Shown piece by piece: positions 45,067 through 64,000 of a DNA stretch of 64,000 nucleotides. Location of the stretch: the NCBI RefSeq assembly GCF_900113675.1, contig NZ_FOQE01000006.1, positions 1 to 64,000 on the forward strand, written 5' to 3'. The position numbers and the translations under genes are program-made. Numbering within the stretch: the stretch's first letter is position 1; each line of letters opens with the position of its first letter. The notes beneath the pieces are model-generated. The model was not told where the DNA came from and did no database searches. It was given only the letters and a program-made list of their open reading frames with translations. The stretch is from Pisciglobus halotolerans. GTDB lineage: Bacteria > Bacillota > Bacilli > Lactobacillales > Carnobacteriaceae.

Positions 45067-45175
45067 GAGAACATTGTTTTATTCGCTTGCTACTATGCAA
45101 ATGTGAACTTTCAGAATAAAAAATATTCAGAAAGCTGACATTTGTTTAGTAGAATGTAGAGTCAACAATGTTCTC
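45067..45175 (+). promoter_or_regulatory. Long hairpin in the pnp leader
   Basis: GAGAACATTGTT (45067-45078) is perfectly complementary to AACAATGTTCTC (45164-45175). Inside, about 17 of 20 bases pair again (AAATGTGAACTTTCAGAATA with the strand around 45123-45142). It ends five bases before the pnp ribosome site and has no U-run, so it is not a terminator. By analogy with Escherichia coli, where RNase III and PNPase act on a pnp leader hairpin, autoregulation is a reasonable inference. Confidence 0.75.
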
Positions 45176-45194
45176 AAAAAAAGGAGAACAAAAT

Positions 45195-47318
45195 ATGTCA
45201 GAGAAACAAGTATTTACTCAAGACTTTGGCGGACGTCCGCTGACAGTCGAAATTGGCCAGCTTGCTAAACAAGCAAATGGGGCTGTGCTCGTTCGTTACG
45301 GTGATACAGTTGTTTTAACAGCAGCAGTTGCAAGTAAGGATGCATTAGATACTGACTTTTTCCCGTTAACAGTCAATTATGAAGAAAAGATGTATGCTGT
45401 AGGAAAAATTCCTGGCGGCTTTATTAAAAGAGAGGGTCGTCCAAGTGAACAAGCAACATTAACTGCTAGATTGATCGACCGTCCGATTCGTCCGATGTTT
45501 GAAGAAGGATTTCGTAATGAAGTTCAAATCACCAACACTGTTCTTTCTGTTGAGCAAGACTGCTCGCCAGCTATCGCAGCAATGTTCGGTTCTTCATTAG
45601 CTTTGGGAGTATCTGATATTCCGTTCAATGGACCCATTGCAGGTGTAGATGTTGGACGTGTAGACGGAGAATTTATTTTAAATCCTACGTCTGCACAGGC
45701 TGAACAATCGGATATCCATTTAACAGTTGCAGGAAGCAAAGATGCTATCAATATGGTGGAAAGCGGAGCAAAAGAAGTTTCGGAAGAAGATATGTTGCAA
45801 GCTTTGTTGTTCGGACATGAAGCCATTAAAGCAATCAATCAGTTCCAAGAAGAAATCATAGCTAAAGCCGGAAAAGAAAAAATGACGGTCAAATTGTTAG
45901 AGATCGATGCTGAATTACGGACAGAAGTTCAAGATGCATTCAAGGAAAAAATGGTTCAAGCCATTCAAGTCCAAGAAAAATTAGCACGTGCTGAACAAAC
46001 AGAAGCCGTTAAAGAAGAAGCTGTAGCTTATTTTGAAGAAAAATATGCTGAGCATGAAGAAGCAGATCGTATCCGCAAAGAAGTGAAACAAATTGTGGAA
46101 GATTTGGAAAAAGATGAAGTGCGTCGCCTCATCACAGCTGAAAAAGTTCGTCCGGATGGTCGTAAGATCGATGAGATTCGTCCTTTATCTTCTGAAGTCA
46201 GTATATTACCAAGAACACATGGATCAGGTCTCTTTACTCGTGGACAAACGCAAGCTTTATCTATCGCTACATTAGCTCCGCTTGGAGAACACCAAATCAT
46301 AGATGGATTAGGTGCAGAAGAAAGCAAACGTTTCATCCATCATTATAATTTCCCGCAGTTTTCAGTAGGCAGCACAGGACGCAGCCGTGCACCTGGTCGC
46401 CGCGAGATCGGCCATGGCGCTCTTGGAGAACGTGCATTAGCGCAAGTTATTCCTAGCGAAAAGGATTTTCCTTATACCATTCGTCTTGTAGCTGAAGTTT
46501 TAGAATCTAATGGTTCTTCTTCACAAGCAAGTATCTGTGCCGGAACTTTGGCATTAATGGATGCCGGTGTACCGATCAAAGCTCCAGTAGCCGGGATAGC
46601 AATGGGTCTAGTAATGGAAAACGAAAACTATACAGTATTAACAGATATCCAAGGACTAGAAGACCACTTAGGAGATATGGACTTTAAGGTTGCAGGAACA
46701 AGCGAAGGAATCACAGCTTTGCAAATGGATATCAAAATTCAAGGGATCACTACAGCAATCTTGAAAGAAGCACTGCAACAAGCTAAAAAAGCGCGTATGG
46801 AAATTTTGGAAGAATTGACTTCAACGATTGCTGAACCACGTCAATCGCTAAGCAAATATGCTCCGAAAATTGAAATGATGCAAATCAATCCAGATAAGAT
46901 CAAAGTCGTTATTGGTCGCGGCGGTGATCAAATCAATGCCATCATTGAAGAAACAGGCGTTAAGATCGATATTGATCAAGATGGAAAAGTCAGCATTGCT
47001 TCAGATGATGCTGAAATGATTCAACGTGCAAAAGAAATCATTGAAGAACTGACAAAAGAAATTGAAGTCGGTCAAGTCTACAACGGAACAGTCAAACGAA
47101 TTGAAAAGTTTGGTACATTTGTTGAAATCGCAAAAGGCAAAGATGGTTTGGTGCATATTTCACAATTAGATAAAAAACGTGTGGGCAAAGTCGAAGATGT
47201 TGTGAGTGTGGGCGACAAGTTAAAAGTTAAAGTTATTGAGATTGATCGCCAAGGACGGATCAACCTTTCGCACAAAGATGTCATGACTGACAGCGAAAAT
47301 GAGAATGAAAAAGCTTAA
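45195..47318 (+). CDS. pnp: Polynucleotide phosphorylase
   Basis: PNPase is the trimeric 3'-to-5' phosphorolytic exoribonuclease. The 707-residue protein has two RNase PH domains (first about 10-140; second about 305-540 with [19 protein letters not shown]), an all-alpha linker, a KH domain (about 555-615; [15 protein letters not shown]) and an S1 domain (about 620-690; [20 protein letters not shown]). ATG 45195 follows AAAAAGGAGAACAAAAT. The MITE-like repeat begins 14 bases after its stop. Confidence 0.98.
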
Positions 47319-53412: not shown

Positions 53413-53443
53413 GAAATGGCAAGGAAAATTAAATGAACACCCA

Positions 53444-53531
53444 TCACAAAGGGGAGCTGTTAAAGCTGAGATTGAATCTTTTGATTCTGACCCTTCGAAC
53501 CTGTTCGTTAGTACGAGCGTAGGAATTGTGA
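53444..53531 (+). promoter_or_regulatory. TPP riboswitch (thi box)
   Basis: Core elements are clear: GGGGAGC, GCTGAGATTGAA, TGACCCTTCGAACCTG and GCGTAGG. The closing helix P1 is TCACAA (53444-53449) with TTGTGA (53526-53531). The P3 hairpin is ATTGAATC/GATTCTGA. Thiamine pyrophosphate binding should turn off the downstream thiamine transporter gene. Confidence 0.92.
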
Positions 53532-53568
53532 CGGAACGCGAAAGTAGTTTTTCAATTACTCCAGTGAT

Positions 53569-60066: not shown

Positions 60067-60405
60067 TTATACGGCCACATTTTCAGCAAGGCGTATGTAG
60101 CGGATATCAGCAAGATTGATCAAAGCGGTTGTTTTTTGATCAGGATTTTCTAAAACAATTCTTTTATCCTCATCTACTGCTGCAGTGACTGTTCCATAAT
60201 ATTCATAAAAGTGATTCATATTTTGTTTGTCTGATATTTGAATAATAACTAATGATGATCTTTGAAAGGCTTGGTTTAGGAAAAAGCGGATTTGATAAAG
60301 TGGCATCTGAGAGAGTGGCTTTTCAGTATGGATTTCTTTTACCAATTGTTTCGTTTTTTGAAAAAAAGTAACTGTTGTGTTTTTAACAGCATTCGATCTA
60401 GACAT
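60067..60405 (-). CDS. YolD-like protein, LexA-controlled
   Basis: This 112-residue protein has a basic helical N-terminal half and a C-terminal beta-rich segment (about 65-108) with YYGTVTAAVDEDKRIVLENP and INLADIRYIRL. The pattern resembles YolD-like (PF08863) proteins, which are often encoded beside Y-family DNA polymerases (UvrX/UmuC type) and induced by DNA damage. No polymerase gene is adjacent here. ATG 60405 follows GGAGG at eight bases; a TTG at 60420 precedes that site. Two LexA boxes in its promoter support the assignment. The molecular function is unknown. Confidence 0.7.
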   Translation of the reverse strand: MSRSNAVKNTTVTFFQKTKQLVKEIHTEKPLSQMPLYQIRFFLNQAFQRSSLVIIQISDKQNMNHFYEYYGTVTAAVDEDKRIVLENPDQKTTALINLADIRYIRLAENVAV

Positions 60406-60417
60406 TTTCCGTTCCTC

Positions 60418-60468
60418 CAAACGTTTGTTCGTTGCTCTTATTATACGAACAAACGTTCAAAAATGCAA
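60418..60468 (-). promoter_or_regulatory. SOS promoter of the YolD-like gene with two LexA boxes
   Basis: On the minus strand, TTGCAT (60463-60468), 17 bp and TATAAT (60440-60445). Box 1, CGAACAAACGTTCA (60446-60459), fills most of the spacer. Box 2, CAAACGTTTGTTCG (60418-60431), lies over the start region. Both fit CGAAC-N4-GTTCG with one mismatch. Together they form a 12-bp perfect inverted repeat around the -10. Confidence 0.85.
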
Positions 60469-60568
60469 GAGCTTTACAGCTTTTATTTTTTAAAAGACAG
60501 AAAGGTATAAAATGGCTTGTACTGATTTGCAAAAGTCTTGAAAATCCCGTTGTCAACGCTTTTATATC

Positions 60569-60607
60569 GAAAACGAGATTGACATCGTTTTCTATTTTTG
60601 ATAAATT
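60569..60607 (+). promoter_or_regulatory. ntp operon promoter with inverted repeat over the -35
   Basis: TTGACA (60579-60584), 17 bp and TGA-TAAATT (-10 at 60602-60607), a strong promoter. GAAAACGA (60569-60576) and TCGTTTTC (60585-60592) are a perfect 8-bp inverted repeat with eight-base spacer centred on the -35, a likely operator. Confidence 0.75.
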
Positions 60608-60634
60608 AGGAGTAGTTAAATAATAAAAACGGTT

Positions 60635-60702
60635 GGGCATTAGCTTTCAAGGTATTTTCTTCTGGGGTGAGGAGAAATTTGATAAGATAATGCCCTTTTT
60701 TC
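60635..60702 (+). terminator. Intrinsic terminator in the ntp leader (attenuator)
   Basis: GGGCATTA (60635-60642) pairs with TAATGCCC (60688-60695), followed by TTTTTT. Inner helices CTTTCAA/TTGATAAG (one bulge) and ATTTTCTTC/GAGGAGAAAT extend it. It lies between the promoter and the first gene, so transcription must be antiterminated, or it leaks, for the V-ATPase to be made. Confidence 0.8.
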
Positions 60703-60726
60703 GTTTTAAGCAAAGGAGGTGCTGAA

Positions 60727-61053
60727 ATGGGATTGGAAGCAGTTGAATATGTGAAAGAGGCTGAAGAAAGAATAGAAGAGCTGAAAAAAGAAACTGATAA
60801 GAAAGCAGCAGATGTTCTTTCTGAAGCTGAACAAACAATCCAACAAAAGAGAGATCGTTTAAATCAAGAACTTGCTGAATATCGAGATGCAAAGGGAAAA
60901 GAATTTGCACATCAATTGAACCAAGATCAAGAGCAAGAAAATATGCAATTGACTCAGGATATACGACAAATGGAAGAAACAGTCGATAAAAACACAAATG
61001 ATGTGGTTAACGATATAGTGAAGGTGGTGGTTAAACGCTATGGCAATAGCTAA
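60727..61053 (+). CDS. ntpF: V-type Na+-ATPase peripheral-stalk subunit (NtpF, subunit G/H)
   Basis: This 108-residue, highly charged coiled-coil protein forms the peripheral stalk with NtpE. Heptad-rich sequence runs from residue 5 to 95 (EYVKEAEERIEELKKETDKK). Its first place in ntpF-I-K-E matches the Enterococcus hirae ntp operon. AAAGGAGGTG precedes the ATG. It overlaps ntpI by 14 bases. Confidence 0.9.
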   Translation: MGLEAVEYVKEAEERIEELKKETDKKAADVLSEAEQTIQQKRDRLNQELAEYRDAKGKEFAHQLNQDQEQENMQLTQDIRQMEETVDKNTNDVVNDIVKVVVKRYGNS

Positions 61054-62995
61054 AATGAAACAAATCACTTTACTGGCAGAACAAAGCCGTAAAGATCAAC
61101 TGTTGAAAGCCGTGCAGGAACTGCAAAAGCTAGAATTGTTTGATTTATCGACTCTAGAAGAAAATGAGCTGCTCCAATACTATTCTCAAGAAACGCACCC
61201 TAAAAAACGCAGTGAGTATGAAGAAAAATTGAAAGACGTGCAGAGCACGCTAGCTTATCTTTCACAATATGTCCCACAACCAGGTCTATTGAAAAAGATG
61301 AAACAAGGAAGAAAAGAGTTGACGCTGAAAGAACTTGAACAACAAGTACAGCATTTTTCTAGTGATGAAGTTGTTGGAGAAGTAAAAGCTTTAGAAAAGC
61401 AAATCACGTCTTTAAATCAAAAAAGAAAAGAATTGACAGATGCCGAAAATTATTTGCGAAACTGGGAAGCGCTAGATTTTAACCCGAATGATTTAAAAAC
61501 ATTCAAGGCAACAACTGGAAGACTAGGAATCGTTCCTTCTGGAAATGTACTTGCGTTTAAAGAGGCGATCAAAGATGTTGGATCAGCTTATCTGGAAGAA
61601 ATTTTCCAGCATAGAGATGAAGCAGCTTACTTAGTGATCACACCAGCGGAACATTTTGAAGACGTGGAGAAAGTATTGAAGAAATACCAATTCACAAATG
61701 TAAATTATCCTTATGCGTCTAAACCAGATGAAGAATTAAAAAAAATTCTGGCTTCAAAAAAGGCGCTTGATAAAAATGAAAAAGACATAAAGGATCGTCT
61801 GCGTCAATTCAAAACATCCATCACTGATTTAGAGTTGACTGAAGAGTATTATTACAATTTAGTCCAACGCGAGAATGCAAAAGTGTTGTTGATGAATGGA
61901 ACAAACCTGTTTATTTTGAATGGATGGTTAGAAGAAGAGCAAGTGTCTTCTTTGAAAAGCTTGTTGACCGAAGAACTGGGCGAAGAACATTATGCGATCA
62001 TCGATGATGAAATCAAAATGAAAGATTATGATGCTGTTCCAGTGGTGCTGAAAAACAATGCGTTAGTCGAACCTTTCGAAAGTGTTACTGAAATGTACAG
62101 TCTGCCGAAATACAATGACATCGACCCCACACCTCATATGACGCCATTTTATTTGGTTTTCTTTGGGATGATGAGTGCTGACTTTGGATATGGATTATTG
62201 TTGTGGCTTGGTTCACTTGTGGCATTGAAAGGACTCAATCTAGACCGTGGAGCAAGAAGATTTATTAAATTCTTCCATTTGCTTTCTTATGCAGTAATGG
62301 TTTGGGGACTGATCTATGGCAGCTTCTTAGGATATACTATGCCCATTCAGCTTCTCTCAACAACAGATGATGTGATTACCATATTACTGTTATCAGTTGT
62401 TTTTGGATTTATCCAAATGGTGTATGGGCTGTTCTTGAATGGAAAAATCAAATGGCAGCAAGAGCAAAGAGCATCGAGCTACATTGATGGAACAGCTTGG
62501 GCTGGTATATTGATCGGTATTGCATTACTGGTTGTTGATATGATGGTTTACAGCAATCCTGTCTTAAGAATGGCTAGCTATCTGCTCATCGGCGTAAACG
62601 TGGTTGGTATTCTTGCCATTTCTACATTGGCTTCGAAGAATAAAGGACTAGGTTTTGCGCTAGGTCTTTATAACTTGTACGGTGTGACAGGTTATGTCGG
62701 CGACCTTGTTAGTTATACTCGACTGATGGCATTAGGTGTATCCGGCGGAAGTATCGCGTTAGCGTTTAACATGATTGTTGATTTTCTTCCGCCAATCGCT
62801 AAGTTTACAGTGGGTATCCTACTCTTTGTCTTCTTGCATGCATTAAATATGTTCCTCACTTACTTGAGTGCATATGTGCATACAGCACGTTTGCAATACG
62901 TCGAATTCTTTGGGAAATTTTATGAAGGTGGCGGAAGAGCTTTGCAACCATTGAAGACACTTGAAAAAAATATTTATCTTAAACAAGAAAAATAA
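61040..62995 (+). CDS. ntpI: V-type Na+-ATPase membrane subunit a (NtpI)
   Basis: NtpI is the stator subunit that gives ions access to the rotor ring. The 651-residue protein has a soluble, coiled-coil-rich N-terminal half (1-330) and a C-terminal domain with about seven to eight membrane helices, beginning near PFYLVFFGMMSADFGYGLLL. The helix with GDLVSYTRLMALGVSGGSIA carries the conserved Arg needed for ion transfer. The start overlaps ntpF out of frame. Confidence 0.95.
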   Translation: MAIAKMKQITLLAEQSRKDQLLKAVQELQKLELFDLSTLEENELLQYYSQETHPKKRSEYEEKLKDVQSTLAYLSQYVPQPGLLKKMKQGRKELTLKELEQQVQHFSSDEVVGEVKALEKQITSLNQKRKELTDAENYLRNWEALDFNPNDLKTFKATTGRLGIVPSGNVLAFKEAIKDVGSAYLEEIFQHRDEAAYLVITPAEHFEDVEKVLKKYQFTNVNYPYASKPDEELKKILASKKALDKNEKDIKDRLRQFKTSITDLELTEEYYYNLVQRENAKVLLMNGTNLFILNGWLEEEQVSSLKSLLTEELGEEHYAIIDDEIKMKDYDAVPVVLKNNALVEPFESVTEMYSLPKYNDIDPTPHMTPFYLVFFGMMSADFGYGLLLWLGSLVALKGLNLDRGARRFIKFFHLLSYAVMVWGLIYGSFLGYTMPIQLLSTTDDVITILLLSVVFGFIQMVYGLFLNGKIKWQQEQRASSYIDGTAWAGILIGIALLVVDMMVYSNPVLRMASYLLIGVNVVGILAISTLASKNKGLGFALGLYNLYGVTGYVGDLVSYTRLMALGVSGGSIALAFNMIVDFLPPIAKFTVGILLFVFLHALNMFLTYLSAYVHTARLQYVEFFGKFYEGGGRALQPLKTLEKNIYLKQEK

Positions 62996-63505
<510 letters not shown>

Positions 63506-63549: not shown

Positions 63550-64000
63550 ATGGCAGAGTTGAAGTTGCTTACGGATCGATTGATTGAAAATAAAAGGTTA
63601 GAGATGCAAAAAAAGATTCAAGAAGCTCAAGCCCAAGCTGCTGAAAAAGTAGCAGAAACTGAAAAAGCGCTAGAGGAAGACAAGCTGCATAAAAGTGCTC
63701 AAATCGATCAACAATTACAAACCCAATACGAACAAGACAAAAATGCTTTAGCTGTTAAAAAGAGAAACCAGTTGCTTGCAGAGAAACAAAAAGCACTCAC
63801 ACTGGTATTTGACCAAGCAAAAGCACAAATGGAAAATTGGGATGATACTCAATTTAAAGCTTTTTTACTCGGTGTTCTACAGCAATTTGAAGCAGATGAA
63901 GGAATAACACTAGTGTTAGGTGAAAAGTCAACGGACAAATTGACAGCTGACTGGCTGAAAGAAGAAACAGCAGATCTTTATCCTATCGACTTGTCGAAAG
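63550..64000 (+). CDS. ntpE: V-type ATPase subunit E (NtpE), partial
   Basis: The first 150 codons of subunit E are present; the window ends mid-gene. It starts MAELKLLTDRLIENKRLEMQ and is a long Glu/Lys/Gln-rich helix to about residue 85, then a globular C-terminal domain begins (FDQAKAQMENWDD). It forms the peripheral stalk with NtpF. AATGGAGGGAC precedes the ATG, 44 bases after ntpK. Confidence 0.9.
   Translation, partial: MAELKLLTDRLIENKRLEMQKKIQEAQAQAAEKVAETEKALEEDKLHKSAQIDQQLQTQYEQDKNALAVKKRNQLLAEKQKALTLVFDQAKAQMENWDDTQFKAFLLGVLQQFEADEGITLVLGEKSTDKLTADWLKEETADLYPIDLSK

Follow-up and report, generated by a model that had tools for sequence, protein, structure and literature searches.

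RF03071 ("Sodium") is the Na+-I riboswitch, which was earlier named the "DUF1646 motif". This class has been described in front of enterococcal and clostridial V-type ATPase genes (White et al. 2022, PMC9337991). The C. acetobutylicum kefB representative has been proven to bind Na+, selectively and in the millimolar range, and to activate a reporter, and its read-through depends on Na+; Na+ binding has also been published for a representative from L. garvieae (PMC9337991). The leader of E. faecalis EF1492 (ntpF) had been seen earlier by Term-seq (PMC9337991), and E. faecalis ntp is about sixfold upregulated in 6.5% NaCl (PMC3995695).

Here, the leader of the ntp operon of Pisciglobus halotolerans was analyzed in a window of 64,000 nucleotides, i.e. 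the whole stretch of DNA under study. An earlier, sequence-only reading of this DNA had guessed that the leader contains a Na+-controlled attenuator, and the RF03071 match, a strand shared by two folds and the conserved structure now back such a predicted switch. We estimate the probability that the leader is a Na+-I riboswitch acting as a transcriptional ON switch at about 94%. The aptamer match, the exclusivity of the folds, the conservation and the gene context were computed here, and Na+ binding and Na+-dependent read-through are known from publications on other representatives of the class; by analogy, the response to Na+ and its ON direction would be expected at the P. halotolerans locus as well. 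The features of the locus are the following:

60569-60592, no strand: perfect inverted repeat GAAAACGA-N8-TCGTTTTC around the -35 (unique in the genome, not conserved, chance-level)
60579-60607, plus strand: sigma-A promoter TTGACA-17-TAAATT with extended -10 (TGa), from the sequence and a layout that recurs in several related ntp promoters
60631-60676, plus strand: Na+-I riboswitch aptamer (RF03071), covariance-model match of 51.0 bits
60633-60638 and 60643-60650, plus strand: aptamer P1 strands, UUGGGC / GCU-UU-CAA
60657-60663 and 60670-60676, plus strand: aptamer P2 strands, with the loop GGGGUG at 60664-60669
60635-60701, plus strand: intrinsic terminator as expression platform, from folding and a comparison of 23 leaders
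60713-60722, plus strand: Shine-Dalgarno region AAAGGAGGTG, from the sequence
60727-61053, plus strand: ntpF (V-ATPase_G-like), the first regulated gene, with a weak V-ATPase_G match and kept at the same place in relatives
61040-62995, plus strand: ntpI (PF01496)
63026-63505, plus strand: ntpK (PF00137; 2bl2), rotor subunit close to the K ring of the E. hirae Na+ V-ATPase
63550-64000, plus strand: ntpE (locus L171), cut at the window end

The gene order is that of a V-type Na+-ATPase, ntpF-I-K-E-C-G-A-B-D, with C, G, A, B and D beyond the window, followed by gmk and coaBC. NtpK is closest to subunit K of the E. hirae sodium ATPase (PDB 2bl2, E 1.9e-72). Judging from its sequence, the operon encodes a Na+ V-ATPase, and the aptamer is accordingly followed by genes of Na+ transport and bioenergetics (ntpFIKECGABD). 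On the other side, the ntp promoter adjoins an ORF on the minus strand (60067-60420, 112-117 amino acids), for which all family matches were below the cut-off. Just upstream of this ORF, at 60418-60459, two LexA-like sites are present (CAAACGTTTGTTCG and CGAACAAACGTTCA), each with one mismatch to CGAACNNNNGTTCG, the consensus of the Gram-positive LexA (SOS) box; the ORF may be SOS-regulated. Elsewhere in the window, a match to the Listeria sRNA rliD (RF01494) was found at 45072-45372 on the minus strand (72.2 bits) of this non-Listeria genome, and a TPP riboswitch at 53440-53542 on the plus strand (61.9 bits).

The sequence-only reading had described a strong promoter with a perfect repeat over its -35, and a leader of about 115 nt that carries a terminator before ntpF. 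All of these elements were found. The -35 element TTGACA (60579-60584) and the -10 element TAAATT (60602-60607) are separated by a 17-nt spacer, and a TG is located one base ahead of the -10 element; the arrangement TTGACA-17-TGnTAAATT is shared with several related ntp promoters. Transcription would thus be expected to start at about 60614, resulting in a leader of about 113 nt ahead of the ATG at 60727. The main text of the paper on the E. faecalis/E. faecium RNA map gives no start for the ntp transcript. The folding energy of the 113-nt leader (about 60614-60726) is -32 kcal/mol, with a z-score of -3.1 versus dinucleotide shuffles.

A scan of the whole 64-kb window with Rfam 15, which included the proposed search for Na+ riboswitches, placed RF03071 at 60631-60676 with 51.0 bits, above the gathering score of 40.5 (E 1.4e-7 in 64 kb). 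The match spans the full model (1-55) and agrees with its strongly conserved core. P1 has the invariant core GGUUGGGC / GCUUUCAAG at its base and P2 the loop GGGGUG, and the bases that are essential according to White et al., AA at the P1 base and GG in the P2 loop, are retained. In the RNA tested in that study, the core-base mutations M1 and M2 abolish binding (PMC9337991). P1 is minimal in P. halotolerans, with a loop of 4 nt. Its pairs are formed in 97.8% of the cells in an alignment of 23 related leaders and are almost invariant; because the P1 core never varies, P1 yields no covariation of its own.

This site is the sole match to RF03071 in the entire genome. Within the family, 17 of 18 genomes had a match with E <= 0.001, which exceeded the cut-off in 16 cases; of 395 genomes sampled from the order, 156 had a match with E <= 0.001. 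At 36 NtpI-anchored loci, which were chosen irrespective of their leaders, the aptamer was above the cut-off in 12 cases, about 400 bases upstream of ntpI. Among the relatives are Desemzia, Carnobacterium, Lacticigenium, Alkalibacterium and several Enterococcus species. One related genome (G013) contains two Na+-I riboswitches, one of which precedes ntp (L018) and the other a different gene (L010).

The position of the terminator had been given correctly before (60635-60702), and we found the hairpin and the U-run at 60635-60701. In the outer stem, GGGCATTA (60635-60642) pairs with TAATGCCC (60688-60695), P2 is enclosed, and a U-run of six T (60696-60701) follows directly. The 5' arm of the terminator, GGGCATTA, doubles as the 5' strand of P1, such that the GGGC strand is common to both folds while P2 is paired in either state. 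Because this strand is shared and P2 lies inside the terminator, the aptamer and the terminator are mutually exclusive, both by folding and in the 23 leaders; an ON switch is therefore predicted, in which Na+ permits read-through. The earlier argument that any aptamer must overlap the terminator stem was thus borne out, and the arrangement is kept in relatives. In step-wise folding, P1 and P2 had formed by nucleotide 64 (-9.8 kcal/mol), when the terminator arm was not yet made. The terminator took over only with the synthesis of UAAUGCCC, with -13.8 at nucleotide 79 and -23.6 at nucleotide 82.

An alignment of the leaders of relatives, which had been suggested as a check, revealed that the hairpin is kept and that its outer helix covaries (23 leaders). 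In this helix, 82.6% of the cells are paired, compared to 38.6-57.1% after a shift of 1-3 columns. Changes on both sides occur in 17 cells, a number that none of 500 shuffles reached. At column pair 10/66, G-C in 11 leaders, A-U in nine and G-U in two represent compensatory change. The two innermost pairs of the outer helix are frequently non-standard (9/23 and 15/23 unpaired), for which bulges are partly responsible. All 23 leaders fold into a hairpin with a U tail that has the GGC arm of the aptamer at its base, and in most of a wider set of ntp leaders the aptamer arm is the 5' arm of the terminator. In a consensus fold by RNAalifold from a MAFFT alignment, the outer terminator helix was present, but the P2 pairs were implausible owing to P2 loops that are offset by 2-3 columns; therefore, pairs were counted for named structures.

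Nine leaders of the enterococcal type (L052, L055, L068, L133, L135, L138, L146, L150 and L168) contain the same aptamer and a separate terminator further downstream. The intervening segment, e.g. TTTGAAGT, can pair with CTTCAAG of the aptamer or with the 5' arm of the terminator. For some of these leaders a relay antiterminator platform is conceivable, the pairing in comparison with shuffles being only suggestive.

In the proposed mechanism, RNA synthesis would begin near 60614 and P1 and P2 of the aptamer would fold first. At low cellular Na+, UAAUGCCC, once made, would capture the 5' strand of P1 (GGGCAUUA), and the hairpin around P2 together with the U-run would halt RNA polymerase before ntpF. 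At high Na+, the bound ion would lock P1 to the P2 loop and GGGC would be retained in P1; the terminator would be unable to close, and ntpFIKECGABD would be transcribed.

The sequence-only reading had added a DNA-binding repressor at GAAAACGA/TCGTTTTC as a second layer of control on top of the riboswitch. The perfect repeat lies across the -35, and E. hirae ntp is reportedly responsive to both Na+ and pH (according to the title of reference 47 in PMC9337991), so that a second regulator would be conceivable. However, when the intergenic region 60421-60726 was subjected to 2000 dinucleotide shuffles, 268 of the resulting sequences (about 13%) contained one or more perfect 8-bp repeats with spacers of 3-12; with 2000 mononucleotide shuffles of the upstream 110 nt, 88 had such a repeat with a spacer of at most 12. 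The repeat is not clearly beyond chance. A whole-genome scan yielded no further GAAAACGA-N8-TCGTTTTC site with 0 or 1 mismatch, and a reversed control pattern had more genome matches than the real one. The repeat is not kept in the related ntp promoters examined, which are from other genera and whose best repeats differ in sequence and placement. The site thus neither recurs in the orthologous promoters examined nor has further copies that would suggest a regulon. In addition, no regulator gene adjoins, the neighbor at 60067-60420 (minus strand) being without a family match above the cut-off. Neither the genome scan nor the relatives nor the shuffles support a repressor, most likely the repeat is not functional, and two layers of control are quite unlikely. 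A two-input gate, in which a lineage-specific repressor bound to the repeat would control initiation, perhaps in response to pH or K+, in combination with Na+-dependent termination, is very unlikely.

Alternatively, the terminator in the leader could be constitutive, or an attenuator for a signal other than Na+ (e.g. Li+, pH or a protein). A strong terminator does precede ntpF, and cation transporters also have lithium riboswitches (PMC9646797). Yet, the entire RF03071 core is present above the curated cut-off, a mere terminator would not keep GGUUGGGC...GCUUUCAAG...GGGGUG across genera, and the tested Na+-I members reject Li+, K+ and divalent ions (PMC9337991), making this explanation highly improbable. 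Hardly credible is that the repeat at 60569-60592 terminates upstream transcription, as, although a scan lists it as terminator-like with the tail TATTTTTGAT, it overlaps the conserved promoter, its 8-nt loop contains the -35, and four terminator-like sites were found versus 4.0 expected in shuffles.

The Na+-I riboswitch in the ntp leader offers a sequence-level account of the sodium induction of Na+-pumping V-ATPase operons. The system is known, and the P. halotolerans genome, which is Carnobacteriaceae-like, adds another case upstream of this type of operon. Of the two-layer control that had been considered noteworthy, the Na+ attenuator stands, but belongs to a published class (PMC9337991), and the repressor finds no support. 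The published enterococcal and clostridial observation is extended to the Carnobacteriaceae, with a conserved, covarying terminator and no new class. E. faecalis EF1492 has the same aptamer class, the same first gene ntpF and the same operon type. The enterococcal case differs in genus, and here the operon ends at ntpD, followed by gmk and coaBC; ntpJ was not found. As in the HMP-PP riboswitch, judged from the title of a reference, the aptamer is partly inside the terminator stem; sequence and ligand are unrelated, and the similarity is one of analogy only. C. acetobutylicum kefB resembles the ntp leader in the core, the P1/P2 layout and an aptamer-exclusive terminator that implies an ON switch. 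However, the kefB terminator has been described as costing P2, whereas that of P. halotolerans ntp uses the 5' strand of P1 and contains P2 intact. The useful detail is this platform, in which P2 is retained and P1 is exchanged for the terminator.
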